Assembly: GCF_016859125.1 (NCBI RefSeq)
Contig: NZ_CP069338.1
Span: forward strand, 6,449,501-6,513,500
Source: Archangium violaceum
GTDB lineage: Bacteria > Myxococcota > Myxococcia > Myxococcales > Myxococcaceae
Direction: 5' to 3'
DNA length: 64,000 bases
Shown here: one piece after another, positions 449 to 61,011 of the stretch
Layout of the letters: the number at the start of each line of letters is the position of its first letter
Position numbering within the stretch: the first letter of the stretch is position 1
Position numbers and translations under genes: made by a program
Notes under the pieces: generated by a model
Seen by the model: only the letters and a program-made list of their open reading frames with translations
The model's database searches: none
What the model was told of the DNA's origin: nothing

Positions 449-486
449 ACCCTCACCCCGGTCCTCTCCCTGAGGGAGAGGGAGGG
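449..486. repeat. REP-like palindrome, copy A
   Basis: A GC-rich interrupted palindrome (CCCTCACCCC, then CTCTCCC-TGA-GGGAGAG) between the PEGA gene stop and the peptidase start. It matches three other copies in the window at 54511, 56789 and 60160, and is in the opposite orientation to those. All four sit at gene ends. A transcript could fold it into a strong stem, so a role in termination or mRNA 3' protection is plausible but inferred. Confidence 0.75.
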
Positions 487-53256: not shown

Positions 53257-54507
53257 ATGAGCCTCTTCCGCTGTCACCGCGCGAGCCCGTGGGCGGTGCT
53301 CGCGCTCGCGGGCTTGATGCTGCTGTCCGGCTGCGCGGGGGACTACATCGCGCGCACGCGGGGCCTGCGCACCGCGTACGAGTCGGAGTCGTACGAGCTC
53401 GCGCTGGCCGAGCTGGAGTCGGTGGCGAAGCATGACTCCGGCAAGGACACGCTGCTGGTGCTGCTGGACCGCGGCATGGTGCTGCACGCGGCGGGACGGT
53501 GGCGGGACAGCATCCAGGTGCTGGCGGAGGCGGACCGGTTGTCGGCGGAACTGGACGTCGTCTCCGTGAGCGAGGAGGCCGGGGCGCTCGTCACCAACGA
53601 GCGGCAGCGCGCCTACCGGGGCGAGGACTTCGAGAAGCTGATGATCTCCGTGCTCCAGGCGCTCAACTACGCGCAGCTGGGCCAGGACGAGGAAGCGCTC
53701 GTCGAGGTCCGCCGCGTGAACGAGCGTCTGGCGAAGATGATCTCCGACGAGAAGAAGCCCTACGAGCAGCTCGCCATCGCGCGCTACATCGGCGGCGTGC
53801 TCTACGAGGACCAGCGGGAGTGGGACTCGGCGTACATCGACTACGCGAAGGCGCTCGAGCTGGAGCCGCGACTGGGCGGGCTGGCGGAGCCGCTGCTGCG
53901 GCTGGCGAAGAAGACGGGGCGGCTGGACGAATACGAGCAGCTGCGTCAGCGCTTCCCGGACGTGGAGCACGCGCCACTGGGGCCGGACGAGGGCCAGGTC
54001 ATCGTGGTGGTGGAAGCGGGGTTGTCGCCGGAGAAGGAGCCCGCGGACCGGCGGATGGACACGCAAGACATCATCCAGGTGCCGGTGTACCGGGACCGGG
54101 GGAACCCTTCGCAGGCCAAGGTGTGGGTGGAGGATGGCGCGAAGCAGCGAACGGTGACGGTGACGTCACTGGCGGACGTGGCGAAGGTGCACCTGAACGA
54201 GCGCATTGGCCGGATGCTGGCGAAACAGGTGGCCGGGGTGGCGTTGAAGGCGGGGCTCGCGGCGGGGGCGGGGGCGCTGACGAAGAGCAAGGAGCTGGGG
54301 GCGCTGACCTTCGTGGTCCTGAACGCGATGAACCAGCCGGACCTGCGCTCCTGGCTGTCACTGCCGGCGGAGTTCCAACTGGCCCGCTTCCGGCTGCCGG
54401 CGGGCCACCACACGGTGCACGTGGACGCCGCGGGATTGCGTACCGCCCGGGAGGTGGAGGTGAAACCGGGCCGGGTGCACGTCGTCGTGGTGCGCAGCTA
54501 CTACTGA
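53257..54507 (+). CDS. TPR-type outer-membrane lipoprotein (COG3014-like)
   Basis: 416 aa. Lipobox L-L-S-G-C (C25) and a mature chain with TPR-like helical pairs: A-Y-E-S-E-S-Y-E-L-A-L-A-E-L-E, A-L-N-Y-A-Q-L-G-Q-D-E-E-A and Y-I-D-Y-A-K-A-L-E-L-E-P. The rest is beta-rich and ends V-V-V-V-R-S-Y-Y. COG3014 lipoproteins commonly accompany LpoB, as here (7 bases apart). They are thought to form part of the same envelope complex. A REP-like palindrome follows the stop. Confidence 0.85.
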   Translation: MSLFRCHRASPWAVLALAGLMLLSGCAGDYIARTRGLRTAYESESYELALAELESVAKHDSGKDTLLVLLDRGMVLHAAGRWRDSIQVLAEADRLSAELDVVSVSEEAGALVTNERQRAYRGEDFEKLMISVLQALNYAQLGQDEEALVEVRRVNERLAKMISDEKKPYEQLAIARYIGGVLYEDQREWDSAYIDYAKALELEPRLGGLAEPLLRLAKKTGRLDEYEQLRQRFPDVEHAPLGPDEGQVIVVVEAGLSPEKEPADRRMDTQDIIQVPVYRDRGNPSQAKVWVEDGAKQRTVTVTSLADVAKVHLNERIGRMLAKQVAGVALKAGLAAGAGALTKSKELGALTFVVLNAMNQPDLRSWLSLPAEFQLARFRLPAGHHTVHVDAAGLRTAREVEVKPGRVHVVVVRSYY

Positions 54508-54510
54508 GCG

Positions 54511-54550
54511 CCCCCTCCCTCGCCCTCCGGGAGAGGGCCGGGGTGAGGGT
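54511..54550. repeat. REP-like palindrome, copy B
   Basis: CCCCCTCCCTCGCCCTCCGG then GAGAGGGCCGGGGTGAGGGT. Same family as the copies at 449, 56789 and 60160. It sits a few bases after the TPR lipoprotein stop and before the ZIP gene, so it could end that operon. Confidence 0.75.
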
Positions 54551-54617
54551 AACGCGCCCCCCGGGTTGCACCCCGAGCGATCTGTGCTAGGTGTCGGGCC
54601 CCCCCGTCGGGTCCCCC

Positions 54618-55376
54618 ATGCCTTTCGCTGTAGCCCTCTCCTCCTACTCCTTGGTCATCCTGCTAGGCGCCGTCGTGGGGGCGCTGGTGGTGGTGCTCAC
54701 CCGCACACCGACGAAGCTGGTGACGTTCCTGGCGTTCGCGGCGGGGGTGATGTTCGGGGCGGCCTTCTTCCACATGCTGCCCGAGGCGTACCACGGGGGC
54801 GGATTCTGGGCGTTCGCGCTGGTGCCGGCGGGGTTCGTGTTCCTGATGGTGCTGGAGCGGTACGTGTTGACGCACGCGTGCGAGGAGCCGCCGGAGTGCG
54901 AGGAGCACGTGCATGGCCACACGCTGGGGCTGACGGCGTTCCTGGGGCTGTCGGCGCACACGCTGTTCGACGGAATCGCGCTGGGCTCGGCGGTGAAGGA
55001 GGGCGTGGGGCTGATGGCGTTGATGGCGATCACCTCGCACAAGGTGCCCTCGTCGCTGTCGCTGGCCTCCATCCTGAAGGCGGAGGGGAAGAGCTCGAGG
55101 CGCATCCTGCTCTTCTCGGTGCTGTACGGGCTGATGGTGCCGGTGGGGGCGGTGCTGTACTTCGCCTTCGACGCGGTGCTGCGCTTCGAGGCGCTGGCTC
55201 CGAGGGCGCTGGCCTTCTCGGCGGGCACCTTCCTCTACGTGGCGGTGTCGGACCTGCTGCCGCACGTGAACCGGCACGGCAAGGACAACCGGGGGCGCAA
55301 CCTGGTGGCGCTGGCGGCGGGCCTGCTGCTGATGCTGGCGCTCGCGCAGATGACGGAGCTGCCGGGTCACCACTGA
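54618..55376 (+). CDS. ZIP-family metal transporter
   Basis: 252 aa from ATG 54618, with eight predicted helices. It shows the family signs: a His-rich loop (E-E-H-V-H-G-H) between helices 3 and 4, H-T-L-F-D-G-I-A-L in helix 4 and S-H-K-V-P-S-S in helix 5, which together form the binuclear metal site. It moves Zn2+ or Fe2+ into the cytoplasm. No Zur or Fur box is visible in the short upstream gap. Confidence 0.92.
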   Translation: MPFAVALSSYSLVILLGAVVGALVVVLTRTPTKLVTFLAFAAGVMFGAAFFHMLPEAYHGGGFWAFALVPAGFVFLMVLERYVLTHACEEPPECEEHVHGHTLGLTAFLGLSAHTLFDGIALGSAVKEGVGLMALMAITSHKVPSSLSLASILKAEGKSSRRILLFSVLYGLMVPVGAVLYFAFDAVLRFEALAPRALAFSAGTFLYVAVSDLLPHVNRHGKDNRGRNLVALAAGLLLMLALAQMTELPGHH

Positions 55377-55499
55377 GGACGGCCGCATTGTAAGCAACCG
55401 ACCAGAGCAGTGCCGGGACGGTTGAGCCCCTGTCGGATGCAGGGGACGCTCCGAAGACCCATCCTGTGGGGTGGTGTGTCGAGCGATCCGGAGGAGGAC

Positions 55500-55907
55500 A
55501 TGCTCACCGTCGAGGAACTGATGACCCGGGAGCTGGTCACCCTGAACGAGGACGATGACATCGTCCGGGGGGACGATCTGCTGGCCCAACATGACATCCG
55601 TCACCTGCCGGTGGTGAAGGATGGAAAGCTCGTGGGGCTGGTGAGTCACCGGGACCTGATTCGGGCCCTGGCCCGTCAGGACAGGGCGCCAGGAGCGCCA
55701 CCGATGCAGGTGCGGGACGTCATGACGCGCTCACCGGAGACGTTGAAGCCGAAGAGCTCGGTGCAGGAGGCCATCCACAAGATGCTCGACCGCAAGTTCG
55801 GGTGTGTTCCGGTGGTGGAGGACGGGGGCCGGCTGGTGGGAATCCTCACGGAGACGGACCTCATCCGCCTCGCGGGCCGCCTTCTGAAACAGGAAGACCG
55901 GCACTGA
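55500..55907 (+). CDS. Two-CBS-domain protein
   Basis: 135 aa from ATG 55500, with a GGAGGAGG ribosome site directly before it. Two CBS units: V-E-E-L-M-T-R / R-H-L-P-V-V-K-D-G-K-L-V-G-L-V-S and R-D-V-M-T-R-S / V-P-V-V-E-D-G-G-R-L-V-G-I-L-T. CBS pairs bind adenosine nucleotides. No catalytic domain is attached, so it must regulate another protein; the target is unknown. Confidence 0.9.
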   Translation: MLTVEELMTRELVTLNEDDDIVRGDDLLAQHDIRHLPVVKDGKLVGLVSHRDLIRALARQDRAPGAPPMQVRDVMTRSPETLKPKSSVQEAIHKMLDRKFGCVPVVEDGGRLVGILTETDLIRLAGRLLKQEDRH

Positions 55908-55998
55908 CCGCGGAAGTCACCAGGAGGGTGACGAGCGCACTTGCTTTTCATGGCGCGGCGCCGAGGATGCATGCCGCCACGAGCGCGGCACTTCATCC

Positions 55999-56820
55999 AT
56001 GGAACGACTCTCCGACTGGTACGACCATCCCGAGTATTACGAGGCCATCTTCGGCACGGACACCGAGCGGGAGATGGACTTCCTGCTGGAGGTGAGCCGC
56101 CGTTACGGCACGGGGGGCAAGAGGTTGCTCGAGCCCGCGTGTGGGGCGGGCCGGCTCGTCGCCGAGGCCGCGCGCCGGGGCTACCAGGTGGTGGGCTACG
56201 ACATCTCCGAGAAGATGCTGGCCCACGCCCGCCGACGCCTCACTCCGGCCATGCGCCGGAGGGTTCGCCTCCATCAGGCCCGCATGGAGGAGTTCTACCA
56301 GCCGGAGCTGGAGGGGAAGGTGGACCTGGCCTTCAACCTGGTGTCCACGTTCCGCTACCTGGACAGCGAGAAGGCGGCGCTCGCGCACCTGGAGGGGACG
56401 CGGCGGCTGCTGAATCCCGAGGGCGTGTACGTGCTCGGCTTCCACCTGACGGACTATGAGCGGGACAAGGCGGAGCACGAGCGGTGGGTGGAGCGGCTCG
56501 GGAAGGACACGGTGGTGTGCAACACCCACGAGGGGTTGCCGGATCCCCGCCTGAGACGCTCGGCCATGCGGAACCGGCTGCGGATAACAGGGCCGGGGAA
56601 GGACCTGCTCATCGAGACGCACTGGTACTTCCGCACATACGATCTGCCGCAGATCCGGCGGCTGTTCCGCCGTGCGGGACTCCAGGTGTTGGCGGTCTAC
56701 GACTTCGACTACCAGGTGGATGCGCCACGGAAGCGGAGAGAAATCAGGCTCGACAGCATCTTCGTGCTGCAACCCGTGAAGACCAAGACTCCCTCTCCCT
56801 CCGGGAGAGGGTCGGGGTGA
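55999..56820 (+). CDS. Class I SAM-dependent methyltransferase
   Basis: 273 aa. Rossmann-type fold with L-E-P-A-C-G-A-G-R-L (motif I), V-V-G-Y-D-I-S (acidic end of beta 2) and V-D-L-A-F-N-L-V-S-T-F (motif IV). Substrate unknown. The last residues, S-P-S-G-R-G-S-G, are encoded by the REP-like repeat copy C, whose TGA is the stop codon. The same tail ends the unrelated gene at 59454, so the C-terminus is repeat-derived, not part of the fold. Confidence 0.88.
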   Translation: MERLSDWYDHPEYYEAIFGTDTEREMDFLLEVSRRYGTGGKRLLEPACGAGRLVAEAARRGYQVVGYDISEKMLAHARRRLTPAMRRRVRLHQARMEEFYQPELEGKVDLAFNLVSTFRYLDSEKAALAHLEGTRRLLNPEGVYVLGFHLTDYERDKAEHERWVERLGKDTVVCNTHEGLPDPRLRRSAMRNRLRITGPGKDLLIETHWYFRTYDLPQIRRLFRRAGLQVLAVYDFDYQVDAPRKRREIRLDSIFVLQPVKTKTPSPSGRGSG

Positions 56821-56824
56821 GGGT
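56789..56824. repeat. REP-like palindrome, copy C
   Basis: CTCCCTCTCCCTCCGGGAGA then GGGTCGGGGTGAGGGT. It overlaps the end of the methyltransferase gene and gives its stop codon. It sits in the convergence with the GDYXXLXY gene, whose stop is at 56827. Confidence 0.85.
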
Positions 56825-56826
56825 AT

Positions 56827-57336
56827 CTACCTGCTCTGTGCGCCGAGCGGCTGTCGTTCAGCGTCCCGCAGACCCACGAGCACGCTGGAGCCATCATCGG
56901 CCACGCGCAGCTCGCCATACTTCGCGTCGGCGTACTGGTCCGCGTGGCCCTCCTGGAAGAAGAAGGACTCCGCACCCAGGCGCACGCGACCCTTGCGTAC
57001 CCTGTAGCGCAGCAGCAGCTCGCCTGGGGCGAGCGGGGTGCCGGGCGCATCACGGCGGACGAAGCGCCCCACGCCGTTCTCGTCGAGGCGGAGCACGAGG
57101 CGCCCGTCCTCCGTGTTCGGGTCCGAGTCCGCGAACGGGTCGGGATCGCGGACCTCGCGGCTGATGGCGTAGTCGAGCACCATGTAATCGCCCTGCATGA
57201 GCGAACGCGGATCCACGGGTGCGAGCTCCAGCAGCACGGGCGTGCCGTGGGCGAGGACGAGCTCCTTGCGTACGACCAGCACCACCAGGACGAGCACGAT
57301 CAGGGCGAGTCCGCCAAATATGACGCGGGCGCGCAT
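56827..57336 (-). CDS. GDYXXLXY-domain membrane protein
   Basis: 169 aa. One N-terminal helix (about 8-24), then a periplasmic beta domain with the namesake G-D-Y-M-V-L-D-Y motif near residues 49-56 and L-L-R-Y-R-V-R-K-G-R-V-R-L-G-A-E-S-F-F-F. The family is always found after DUF4401 and DUF2157 genes, as here. Function unknown. Its ATG shares one base with the preceding TGA (TGATG). Confidence 0.92.
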   Translation of the reverse strand: MRARVIFGGLALIVLVLVVLVVRKELVLAHGTPVLLELAPVDPRSLMQGDYMVLDYAISREVRDPDPFADSDPNTEDGRLVLRLDENGVGRFVRRDAPGTPLAPGELLLRYRVRKGRVRLGAESFFFQEGHADQYADAKYGELRVADDGSSVLVGLRDAERQPLGAQSR

Positions 57337-58409
57337 CAGCGCACCTCCTCGGTAGCGGGGAAGCGGCGCAGGATGAAGAGACGCAGGCCGAGCAGCACCA
57401 GGCCGCCGCCGAGCAGCGCGAGCGACTTGGCCAACAGCGTGAGCTGGAGGTCGTAGTAGTAGCCCACGCCGAAGCCGAGCACGAAGAGCACGGCCATGCC
57501 GAGCATCACCACGCTGCGCCGATGGAAACCGAGCAGGAGCACGCCGGTGGCGGCGATGACTCCGGGGGTCTGGAGCGTGAGGAGCGCCAGAAGCCCGAGC
57601 GAGGCGAAGGCCGTCACGCCCGCGATTCCACCGGGCTCGGAGCCCGTCTCCTCCAGCACGCGCCAGGCCGAGTACAGCGTCACCACTGCGAGTCCCAGGG
57701 TCAGCACGCCGGGTGGCAGTTCCACCGCGCCGTGGCGGAAGAGTTCGCGGTAGATGTCATGGAACCAGCTGCGCATCACCAATGACGACAGGAGCGTGGT
57801 GACGAGCCCGAAGGCCGCGGGCGTCACCATCGCACCCCAGGGCCCACTCTGGAGCCGTCCCTGTTGGAGCAGGAGGTGGTGCGCGAGAAGGGTGAGGCCC
57901 ACGAGCGCCACGTCCACCAGCACGCCGGGCGCGGTGAGGCGCAGCAGGAGCATCAACGCGAAGCTGGCGAACAGCGCGGACAGGAAACGCTGGATGGCAT
58001 CCGGGTAGACGAAGAGAAGTACCCCCTGGATAGCGATGGTGGCGATGGCCGCCGCCTCCGCGCTCTCGGAGAGGACCGCGACGCCACCGATGAAGAGGCC
58101 CTGCCCGGCCAGTCCGGTGGACAGGGCGAGCTGGGTGAGGAACACGTTGTCCCCCAGACGGCGCAGGAAGACGGCACCTCCGGTGAGCAGCAGGCCCAGG
58201 ATGATGGCGCCCACCTCCTCGCCGATCACCACTCCCAGGGAGAGGAACGCCATCAGGAACAGGGAGGAGAACCAGGCTCCGAATCCGATGAGGACGCGCA
58301 CGAACCAGGGCATGGCCGCGGTGGCCTGCCGGGAGGCTGCGAGCGCGGCGCGCGCCTGTTCCTGGAACTCGGCGGGCAGAACCTCCCGGAGCGAGGGTTT
58401 GAGCGCCAT
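57336..58409 (-). CDS. DUF4401 membrane protein
   Basis: 357 aa from ATG 58409, ten or more hydrophobic helices. It belongs to DUF4401 by context and by the N-terminal pattern P-W-F-V-R-V-L-I-G-F-G-A-W. Middle gene of the DUF2157-DUF4401-GDYXXLXY operon found across many proteobacteria. Two bases separate it from the DUF2157 stop. No function is known for the trio. Confidence 0.9.
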   Translation of the reverse strand: MALKPSLREVLPAEFQEQARAALAASRQATAAMPWFVRVLIGFGAWFSSLFLMAFLSLGVVIGEEVGAIILGLLLTGGAVFLRRLGDNVFLTQLALSTGLAGQGLFIGGVAVLSESAEAAAIATIAIQGVLLFVYPDAIQRFLSALFASFALMLLLRLTAPGVLVDVALVGLTLLAHHLLLQQGRLQSGPWGAMVTPAAFGLVTTLLSSLVMRSWFHDIYRELFRHGAVELPPGVLTLGLAVVTLYSAWRVLEETGSEPGGIAGVTAFASLGLLALLTLQTPGVIAATGVLLLGFHRRSVVMLGMAVLFVLGFGVGYYYDLQLTLLAKSLALLGGGLVLLGLRLFILRRFPATEEVR

Positions 58410-58411
58410 GG

Positions 58412-59404
58412 CTACACCTCCTCCGAGCCACGCGCCTCGGCGCGCAGCCACCAGACCGAGAGTCCCACCTCGCCGATGATGACCAGGGCCATCACGAAGA
58501 AGACGTCCGGCTCGAAGCGGTTCTCATTGAACAGGGCGCGGCCAATCAAGGTGGTGACCAGCGTCATCGCGCTCATCGCGTCCAGGGTGAGAAGGAAGAG
58601 CTCGGAGCGGACGAAGCGGTGGAAGAGATACGCCGCGACCATCACTCCCAGGAGCAGGCCGAACGCCACGCGGCTCGCGGTGTCCGCCTCGCGAGGCTCC
58701 GCCACCATGTAGGTCGCCAGCGCGAGCAGCGGTGCCAGTGTCATCATCGCGAGCACCCGGGGCAGCCACCGGCCCTGAAGCCAGGGAATGCCACGCCCCG
58801 CGAGGAGCTCGTGCGCGGCCCAGGCCCCGCCGTTCACCAGCCCGAGCACCAGGAGCAGCGTGGAACCCTCTCCGAGGGCGACCTGCTCCCAATAAAGGCA
58901 GATACCCGTGTCCACGAGGAGCAGCAGCAACAGCCACAAGGGGCCAAAGCGCGCGAGCGCCACCCAGGGCAGGACGAGCAGGCTCCACCCGATGAACAGC
59001 TCATAGGGATCGGCGCCCGTCTGGTACGCCTGCCCGTAGACGGCGAGTAGCGGGCCCACGAGCACCGCCGCGAAGAGGAGGGCGAACTGTCCAGCGAGCC
59101 CCTCACCCAGACGCCAGGCCGCGAGGGACGCCGCGAGGATGGCCGCCAGCAGCAGCCCCATCTTCCCGAAGCGGTGGAGGGCCGCCCAGTTGTAGGCGAA
59201 GAAGTAGATGACGCCGGAGAGCACGAGCAACGAGCCGAAGCCGAGCAGCACGGCGGACAGGAAGCGCCGCCAGGCGGGCCGCGCTGGAGAGGCCACGGCG
59301 AGCCGCAGGGCCTGCTCCATGCCCGAGGGCGTCAGGACACCGGCATCGGCGAGCGCGCGGATGCGTTCGGGCGTGGCGGCGAAATCAAGCGGATCAAGGG
59401 ACAC
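58412..59404 (-). CDS. DUF2157 membrane protein
   Basis: 330 aa from GTG 59404. The short cytoplasmic N-terminus (helical, R-I-R-A-L-A-D-A-G-V-L-T) and about ten hydrophobic helices, beginning F-G-S-L-L-V-L-S-G-V-I-Y-F-F-A-Y-N-W, fit DUF2157. First gene of its operon. The frame stays open further upstream, but the plus-strand alkylation repair gene occupies that DNA. A 49-base divergent gap holds both promoters. Confidence 0.9.
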   Translation of the reverse strand: MSLDPLDFAATPERIRALADAGVLTPSGMEQALRLAVASPARPAWRRFLSAVLLGFGSLLVLSGVIYFFAYNWAALHRFGKMGLLLAAILAASLAAWRLGEGLAGQFALLFAAVLVGPLLAVYGQAYQTGADPYELFIGWSLLVLPWVALARFGPLWLLLLLLVDTGICLYWEQVALGEGSTLLLVLGLVNGGAWAAHELLAGRGIPWLQGRWLPRVLAMMTLAPLLALATYMVAEPREADTASRVAFGLLLGVMVAAYLFHRFVRSELFLLTLDAMSAMTLVTTLIGRALFNENRFEPDVFFVMALVIIGEVGLSVWWLRAEARGSEEV

Positions 59405-59453
59405 GGCGGTGGAGGCTAGCGCCCCGACCCCTGTCCCGGCCAGACTCCCTGTT

Positions 59454-60197
59454 GTGAGCACTCCCTCCGCGAAGAGCGTCCAGGACGAGCTGGCACGAGC
59501 GGCCGATCCCGAGAAGGCCGCCTTCTTTCCGAAGTTCTTCAAGACGGGCCCGGGGGGATACGCCGAAGGGGACGTGTTCCTGGGCGTGACCGTCCCGGAG
59601 CAGCGGCGGATCGCCCGGCGCCACAAGAACCTCCCCCTGGAGCAGGTGCGTGAGCTGTTACGGAGCAAGCTGCACGAGCACCGGTTCACCGGCTTCGTCA
59701 TCCTCGTGGAGCAGTTCGAGCGGGCGGACGAGGCCGGACGCGAACGCCTCTTCACCTTCTGCCGGGAGCACCTGGCGGGGATGAACAACTGGGACCTGGT
59801 GGACACGGTGGCGCCGCGACTGATCGGCGCATACCTGCTCGAGCATCCCGAGCACGTGCCGCAGCTCTACGACTTCGCACGCTCGCCAGTGCTGTGGGAG
59901 CGGCGCATCGCCATCATGGCGACCTTCGCCTTCATCCGGGCGGGAGACTTCACACACACGTTGAAGCTGGCGGAACTCCTGCTCCACGACGAGCACGATC
60001 TCATCCACAAGGCGGTGGGGTGGATGCTGCGCGAGGTAGGGAACAGGAACATGGCGACCGAGGAAACCTTCCTCGACCGCCATGCCGGAGAGATGCCGAG
60101 GACCATGTTGCGCTACGCCATCGAGAAGTTCCCGCCAGCCAGACGCAAACATTACATGACCCTCTCTCCCTCTCCCTCTGGGAGAGGGTCGGGGTGA
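59454..60197 (+). CDS. DNA alkylation repair protein (AlkD-like HEAT repeats)
   Basis: 247 aa from GTG 59454. All-helical HEAT-like repeats with F-F-K-T-G-P-G-x-Y-x-x-G-D-V-F-L-G-V, N-N-W-D-L-V-D and L-W-E-R-R-I-A-I-M-A-T-F, the pattern of the AlkC/AlkD glycosylase family that excises alkylated bases such as 3-methyladenine and 7-methylguanine. The Asp and Trp residues that line the AlkD cleft are in place. The final S-P-S-G-R-G-S-G is encoded by a REP-like repeat (copy D), which also supplies the stop codon. Confidence 0.9.
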   Translation: MSTPSAKSVQDELARAADPEKAAFFPKFFKTGPGGYAEGDVFLGVTVPEQRRIARRHKNLPLEQVRELLRSKLHEHRFTGFVILVEQFERADEAGRERLFTFCREHLAGMNNWDLVDTVAPRLIGAYLLEHPEHVPQLYDFARSPVLWERRIAIMATFAFIRAGDFTHTLKLAELLLHDEHDLIHKAVGWMLREVGNRNMATEETFLDRHAGEMPRTMLRYAIEKFPPARRKHYMTLSPSPSGRGSG

Positions 60198-60201
60198 GGG
60201 T
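60158..60201. repeat. REP-like palindrome, copy D
   Basis: GACCCTCTCTCCCTCTCCCT then CTGGGAGAGGGTCGGGGTGAGGG. It overlaps the end of the alkylation repair gene, giving its tail and TGA stop, and lies 27 bases before the converging nucleotidyltransferase stop. An extra CTCTCC unit makes it longer than copy C. Confidence 0.85.
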
Positions 60202-60228
60202 ATGCATTCCCGTGCTCCCACCCGTGAC

Positions 60229-61011
60229 TCAGAACCGTGAGCGCCGGAACTCGAGCAACCACGCCTCCAACTCTTCGGCGCCCACGGGCTCCTCGGGGAG
60301 CACGGAGTGCTCGCAGGCCGAGTCAAGCCGCTCGAAGGCGCGTCCCACCTGTCCGCGCCAGTGCTCGGAGAGGGATTCGGGCAACTCACTGCGCTCGCCA
60401 CGCCGCTTCCACTCGACGAGCTCGCGCGCCTCCCGGAAGCCATAGCGGTCCATCAGCGCGGTGAGGTCCGTCTCCACTTCGCCGGTGAGCAGCGCGTGAG
60501 TACCGGTGAGCGCCGTGCGCAGCACGTACAGGAGCTTCTTGGTGGAACGGAAGTCCGTCTTCTCCCACTCGCGCAACTGACTGTGGGCGAAGCCGCGGTA
60601 ATGCCTGTGCAGACGCCGCGACAGCACCCGGCGCACGAGCGGACGCAGGGACTCCAGCTCGGCCGAGCCGCGCAGGGTATGCGCTCCGAGCAGCCGCTCC
60701 ACGTAGTTGCCGTTGCCCTGGAGGACGCCGAACAGCACGGGGCCGACCTCGTTGGACGAGTAATCCACCTCGACGCCGTCCACGACCTCCAGCCGCTCGG
60801 CGGTGGCGGAGCCGCGCTGCTCCAGCCGGAGCAAATGCGCGGTGGGGGTGACGTGGACGCACTTGAGGTCCAGGTCGCTGTCGGGTGAGGGGAAGCCGTA
60901 CGCGTGGGCGCCCGAGAGGGACACGACGAGGTGCTCGCGCCGCGAGGACTCCTCGTCGAGCGCGCGGTCGGCCACGCGCCGCTGGTGTTCCGTCATCAGA
61001 TGGTCCGTCAT
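60229..61011 (-). CDS. Predicted nucleotidyltransferase (COG3541-like), second of pair
   Basis: 260 aa from ATG 61011. The N-terminal nucleotidyltransferase core reads S-L-S-G-A-H-A-Y-G-F-P-S-P-D-S-D-L-D, the G-S-x-x-x-G ... S-D-x-D pattern (Ser/Gly and two Asp for metal). A helical rest follows. Its ATG overlaps the previous stop by four bases, so it is coupled with the larger family member upstream. Substrate unknown. Related genes sit near RNA repair or toxin-antitoxin functions in other bacteria, but nothing here shows which. Confidence 0.8.
   Translation of the reverse strand: MTDHLMTEHQRRVADRALDEESSRREHLVVSLSGAHAYGFPSPDSDLDLKCVHVTPTAHLLRLEQRGSATAERLEVVDGVEVDYSSNEVGPVLFGVLQGNGNYVERLLGAHTLRGSAELESLRPLVRRVLSRRLHRHYRGFAHSQLREWEKTDFRSTKKLLYVLRTALTGTHALLTGEVETDLTALMDRYGFREARELVEWKRRGERSELPESLSEHWRGQVGRAFERLDSACEHSVLPEEPVGAEELEAWLLEFRRSRF

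Follow-up and report, generated by a model that had tools for sequence, protein, structure and literature searches.

In Archangium violaceum, copies of a G/C-rich repeat are concentrated directly behind stop codons, mostly on the strand of the gene that they follow, and in a minority of cases the copy itself encodes the end of the gene. Two such ends lie in the stretch of 64,000 nucleotides analysed here (the window, i.e., the whole stretch at its full length), where a methyltransferase gene and a DNA alkylation repair gene share a tail and a stop codon. The best joint explanation, to which we assign a probability of roughly three in four, is that non-autonomous copies of the PIT/TM repeat lie behind stops, that some of them have replaced gene ends, and that the transcribed hairpin may act at the mRNA 3' end. 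The case illustrates how the ends of genes from unrelated families can be rewritten by a repeat that moves or amplifies.

The methyltransferase gene (55999-56820, plus strand; Pfam Methyltransf_25, residues 44-142) ends in TKTPSPSGRGSG, and the DNA alkylation repair gene (59454-60197, plus strand, predicted GTG start; Pfam DNA_alkylation, residues 9-226, E 6.5e-63) ends in TLSPSPSGRGSG; both Pfam domains stop short of these tails. An earlier note, made from the sequence and its open reading frames, had stated that both genes end in SPSGRGSG and a stop, inside the repeat and in the same frame of it, and this is indeed the case, the full shared tail being PSPSGRGSG. Copy A (56791-56823, plus strand) and copy B (60168-60200, plus strand), neither with a mismatch to the consensus, encode the last codons and the stop of the methyltransferase and the alkylation repair gene, respectively. 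The TGA codons themselves (56818-56820 and 60195-60197, both plus strand) fall within the GGGGTGAGGG arm. Both copies also lie between convergent genes, as the note had it, since the facing minus-strand genes end at 56827 (56827-57336, a protein with a GDYxxLxY motif, just past copy A) and at 60229 (60229-61011, a codon-usage gene call downstream of copy B). Three minus-strand genes (56827-59404), namely the one for the GDYxxLxY-motif protein and two for membrane-protein-like products, separate the methyltransferase from the alkylation repair gene; in two relatives (G003 and G005) the two genes are directly adjacent, without this block.

Two further copies, both with one mismatch, were likewise found close to the positions given in the note (449 and 54511). 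The one at 54517-54549 (plus strand) lies 9 nt past the stop of a same-strand gene (53257-54507), and the one at 450-482 (minus strand) lies 13 nt past the stop of an opposite-strand gene ending at 436. Two of the four window copies thus supply a stop, compared with 6 of 76 in the sampled genome, a mildly unusual share (P about 0.03). A search of Rfam 15 with positions 54400-60400 of the window gave no match up to E = 1.

That the tails come from the repeat follows from the orthologues, as those that lack the repeat also lack the tail. Repeat-less methyltransferase orthologues end in FVLRPV (G003), FVLRPA (G005), FVLQSMKSPA (G001), FVLQPAKGPA (G002), and FVLQPAG (G018). Ends of the alkylation repair orthologues are KLKA, KIRSAPPVA, and AR; the gene of G001 has no repeat and ends in KLKA, that of G002 carries the repeat in another phase with a longer tail (KLKPSPSISPRPPGEGRGEG...) ending in KLKPSPSISPRPPGEGRGEGARPRSPRRASKP, and that of G004 has kept a remnant of the repeat. 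A tail native to both protein families, with the DNA match being secondary, would find some comfort in the methyltransferase orthologues of two other genera, G008 and G016, whose tails (PSPSGRGTG and PSPSGRATG, respectively) are of the same kind. These two orthologues, however, carry the repeat itself at their ends, and the tail is common to unrelated proteins. We reject a native tail, which is hardly credible given that the C-termini without the repeat differ. The same tail in repeat-less orthologues would have favoured it; we looked for this, and the outcome favours the repeat. The earlier claim that the repeat extends and closes both coding frames is thereby borne out, and the PSPSGRGSG tails are repeat-derived.

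The GDYxxLxY-motif gene is found downstream of the repeat in G008 as well (76% protein identity), and its junction region can be aligned with that of the window for about 1.5 kb (77% DNA identity). Because of this shared neighbour and the aligning junction, the junction between methyltransferase and repeat is probably old and inherited, or the parts were transferred together.

The note had described the repeat as a palindrome. The palindrome is present, but the full unit is longer: it reads CCCTCTCCC-N3-GGGAGAGGG-N2-GGGGTGAGGG(T) and spans 33 bp. Five of its six frames are free of stops; the sixth, on the plus strand, reads ...PSPSGRGSG-TGA. A gene that stops within an intact copy must hence end in this way, which is why both genes have an identical tail and no second coincidence is needed. 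The type B architecture, in which a purine-rich third arm (GGGGTGAGGG) comes after a stem (CCCTCTCCC/GGGAGAGGG), is that of the PIT/TM motif (Hoyne et al. 2000, as cited; Holder et al. 2015, PMC4666352), as are the many copies and their variation among close relatives. Moreover, E. coli copy 20 in Table 1 of PMC4666352, CCCTCTCCCTGTGGGAGAGGGTCGGGGTGAGGGC, equals the window copies apart from the loop. Judged by its sequence, then, what Archangium carries is PIT/TM in its type B form, a G/C-rich intrastrand-triplex motif already described in the literature. The E. coli copies are reported to form an intrastrand triplex in DNA (PMC4666352). In our genome, the next base after the repeat is nearly always T, often as TAT or TCT. 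Several copies additionally share a stretch further downstream that resembles CCCGGGTTGAACCC, a hint of a longer composite unit.

The genome is a single contig of 12.68 Mb and holds 314 exact palindromes, compared with one for a reversed-pattern control; the window has 4 where 0.19 are expected. Both figures reject a chance origin of the repeat. The dispersal of the family, which had been proposed from the window copies, thus holds genome-wide, and related genomes also carry many copies. For position and strand, we sampled 1.6 Mb of this genome (540 kb of contiguous sequence including the window and 53 stretches of 20 kb, which were picked for holding a palindrome copy), 400 kb of the sister species G003, and 0.79 Mb of G012, from another myxobacterial genus. 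Genes were called by our own simple codon-usage method, which for the window region is consistent with the open reading frames discussed above, and copies were counted with at most two mismatches.

This yielded 76 copies in the 1.6 Mb, 63 of them intergenic. For 44 of the 63, the 3' end of a gene is no more than 20 nt away, whereas random placement in the same gaps gives 10% (P 2e-29), and 41 of these 44 close copies are on the gene's own strand (41:3, P 2e-9). Convergent gaps are enriched (23/63, 14% expected) and divergent gaps depleted (4/63, 27% expected). G003 replicates both biases (14 of 21 copies close to a 3' end; strand 12:2). In G012 the position is replicated as well (32/57), and the preference for the gene's own strand is less marked (21:11, P 0.11). 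In a multi-phylum sample the closest copies were often on the opposite strand, with mixed results by a crude longest-ORF method; these strand results are unreliable, as spurious ORFs are long in GC-rich DNA. Given the weaker bias in G012 and the opposite-strand copies in other phyla, the sense bias is not family-wide. It does give PIT/TM a strand-polarised position signal that is replicated in a sister species. The earlier reading was incomplete in this respect, as it had missed both the PIT/TM identity and the sense-strand bias directly behind stops.

Stop codons are supplied by 6 of the 76 sampled copies, all in the frame that ends in PSPSGRGxG. Besides the two window genes, these are a pseudouridine synthase, a hydrolase/OsmC protein, a sigma-54 activator, and a phosphotransferase. 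In G012, 2 of 62 copies do the same, for a CoaBC-like flavoprotein and a predicted membrane protein (tail PSPPGRGKG), and a Chloroflexi methyltransferase (L035) has the same repeat-type end. The stop-supplied genes that we tested carry real Pfam domains. A same-strand read-through tail was seen once, in a histidine kinase-like protein ending in ISPLPSGEGRGEGIG. The TGA phase is therefore in excess (8:1, with 1:2 expected; P 0.001), albeit with small numbers, and selection against long read-through would give the same excess. Two copies in long predicted ORFs (G000:C1, around 1233119 and 2309590) lie on the opposite strand in the same phase and add PHPGPLPEGEG to the predicted proteins, as is seen with Rickettsia palindromic elements.

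Of a longer form, GGGAGAGGGNNGGGGTGAGGG, our genome has 215 copies, each of five congeners about 400-470, and four further genera of the family between 62 and 202; most other relatives searched gave zero copies. A 31-base form also matched other groups, with Pseudomonas, Variovorax, Enterobacter, Chloroflexi, Acidobacteria, Nitrospirae, Planctomycetes, and others among the matches listed. Near-identical repeats were observed across many phyla (loci L026-L145), in Pseudomonas often as close inverted pairs. Between our genome and G003 (about 88% DNA identity), some sites are common and other copies are present in one genome alone. Empty orthologous sites are imprecise, and the flanks are without a clear target duplication. 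At one locus of G003 (L240; C1, about 2955795-2956794), three repeats in the same orientation, at intervals of about 450 bp, flank a pair of closely similar genes for 113-aa cysteine-containing proteins, which suggests tandem duplication by recombination between repeats.

The note had also raised a link to a REP-associated (RAYT) transposase. A RAYT-mobilised REP element would be short, palindromic, and dispersed, near 3' ends and with occasional close pairs in +- orientation, all of which the repeat shows. The transposase side does not follow: in a search of our genome and 14 relatives, PF01797 (Y1/RAYT) had no match in our genome, and the weak matches in the sister species have no repeat within about 1 kb. 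G004 and G012, moreover, have many copies and no PF01797 match. The link thus found no backing, and we consider it very improbable. Multicopy proteins of about 310-350 aa with weak Y1 matches occur in G001, G002, G003, G005, and G008 (L166-L175), unflanked by the repeat; this family had no match above the cut-off in our genome. Genes enclosed by repeat pairs, looked at as carrier candidates, are ordinary ones, with no transposase seen among them. Nor do the listed copies and their flanks have a GTAG or CGTC tetranucleotide at the repeat end, the commonest 3' continuation being TAT/TCT.

Under our preferred explanation, dispersed, non-autonomous copies of a G/C-rich palindrome come to lie, or are kept, chiefly in the first 20 nt past stops, in gene sense, with a minority sitting on, or slightly upstream of, the native stop. 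Where such a copy lies on the same strand in the TGA phase, it replaces the native end with PSPSGRGxG and becomes the stop codon; the methyltransferase and alkylation repair genes are two such replacements. Of this, the origin of the tails, the dispersal, the presence or absence of copies among related species, and the biases of position and strand are shown by the data. The transcribed hairpin would in addition have an effect at the 3' end of the mRNA: it could, for instance, block 3' exonucleases once Rho-dependent termination has taken place, or act on ribosomes that are ending translation. We infer this RNA-level role from the sense-strand bias directly behind stops. A 9-bp hairpin is possible on the transcribed strand directly behind the stop; hairpin energies of the window copies against shuffled sequence range from z -0.55 to -2.5, i.e., they are not always better. 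An intrinsic terminator is rejected, as there is no T run behind the repeat and a terminator scan found none at the repeat sites. It also speaks against the explanation that E. coli PIT/TM motifs are reported to lack promoter and terminator activity (PMC4666352).

Two other accounts compete with this. The copies could be neutral debris that spread without bias and survived where it is harmless, behind genes, the supply of stops being an accident of phase. Depletion in divergent (promoter) gaps and in coding sequence fits such a process, and so do host genes that are functionally unrelated and copies that differ between congeners. From avoidance of genes and promoters, on the other hand, one would not expect a 41:3 strand bias, nor copies that crowd into the 20 nt past the stop relative to the rest of the same gaps, which leaves neutral debris a possible but doubtful account. 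Alternatively, an insertion mechanism of fixed polarity could target DNA at stop codons or 3' ends, and this by itself would account for position and strand bias. The tight distances and the polarity suit it, and two element-less orthologous sites consist of convergent genes with a common CTAG stop. Against it stand the failure to find a transposase, our genome having no Y1 transposase, as well as the imprecise empty sites and the flanks without clear target duplication; targeted insertion is unlikely in our view. Position and polarity as such would be explained by selection at the mRNA 3' end and by a polar insertion mechanism alike.

A bolder form of the 3'-end role can be put forward tentatively, at well below even odds: Archangium PIT/TM could be a strand-specific mRNA 3'-end module, in which the transcribed hairpin, together with the purine arm, defines where the mRNA ends or governs the termination of translation. 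It is conceivable, with similarly modest confidence, that the sense orientation is selected and that the built-in TGA lets the element double as a stop. If true, this would add an RNA function to a repeat so far known solely as a DNA triplex. With the strand-polarised signal, whether PIT/TM acts as DNA or RNA becomes a question of an orientation effect.

Part of what we describe has counterparts in other repeats. Rickettsia palindromic elements (RPEs) insert inside ORFs and are translated as part of unrelated proteins. The Archangium repeat resembles them as a palindromic repeat translated in unrelated proteins; it differs in that its copies are mainly at gene ends, with two candidate internal cases in our sample. 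Closest by sequence are the E. coli PIT/TM copies, which are like the Archangium repeat apart from the loop and share its dispersal and its variability between strains (PMC4666352). By that account, every E. coli copy is intergenic, neither strand is preferred, and positions upstream of ORFs are the more frequent ones; the motif goes with increased local variability between strains and has no gene-regulatory role. The Archangium copies, in contrast, follow stop codons in gene sense and are able to provide the stop themselves.

The CCCTCTCCCXX(X)GGGAGAGGG repeats of Enterobacter sp. 638 have the same palindrome, about 100 copies, and often a location at a gene's 3' end, for which the authors presume a role in termination (PMC2869309). 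They are often duplicated or triplicated, whereas the Archangium copies are mostly single, and the portion of that account compared here describes no supply of stop codons. REPs tagged with GTAG or CGTC are located no further than 20 bp from 3' ends, both in convergent and in unidirectional gaps; the GTAG ends often provide the stop codon, and some of these REPs lie inside ORFs (PMC3733652). The Archangium repeat differs from them in sequence, lacks the GTAG/CGTC tag, and has no associated RAYT that we found. E. coli REPs near stops, from ribosome-stalling work cited in PMC12306157, also place a stem-loop within 15 nt of the stop, with another sequence. Taken together, the Archangium case is a new instance of known behaviour in a known repeat family, which combines known features. 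The comparison suggests that its strong sense-strand polarity directly behind stops is a feature that the published PIT/TM and REP accounts, in the parts compared, do not describe.
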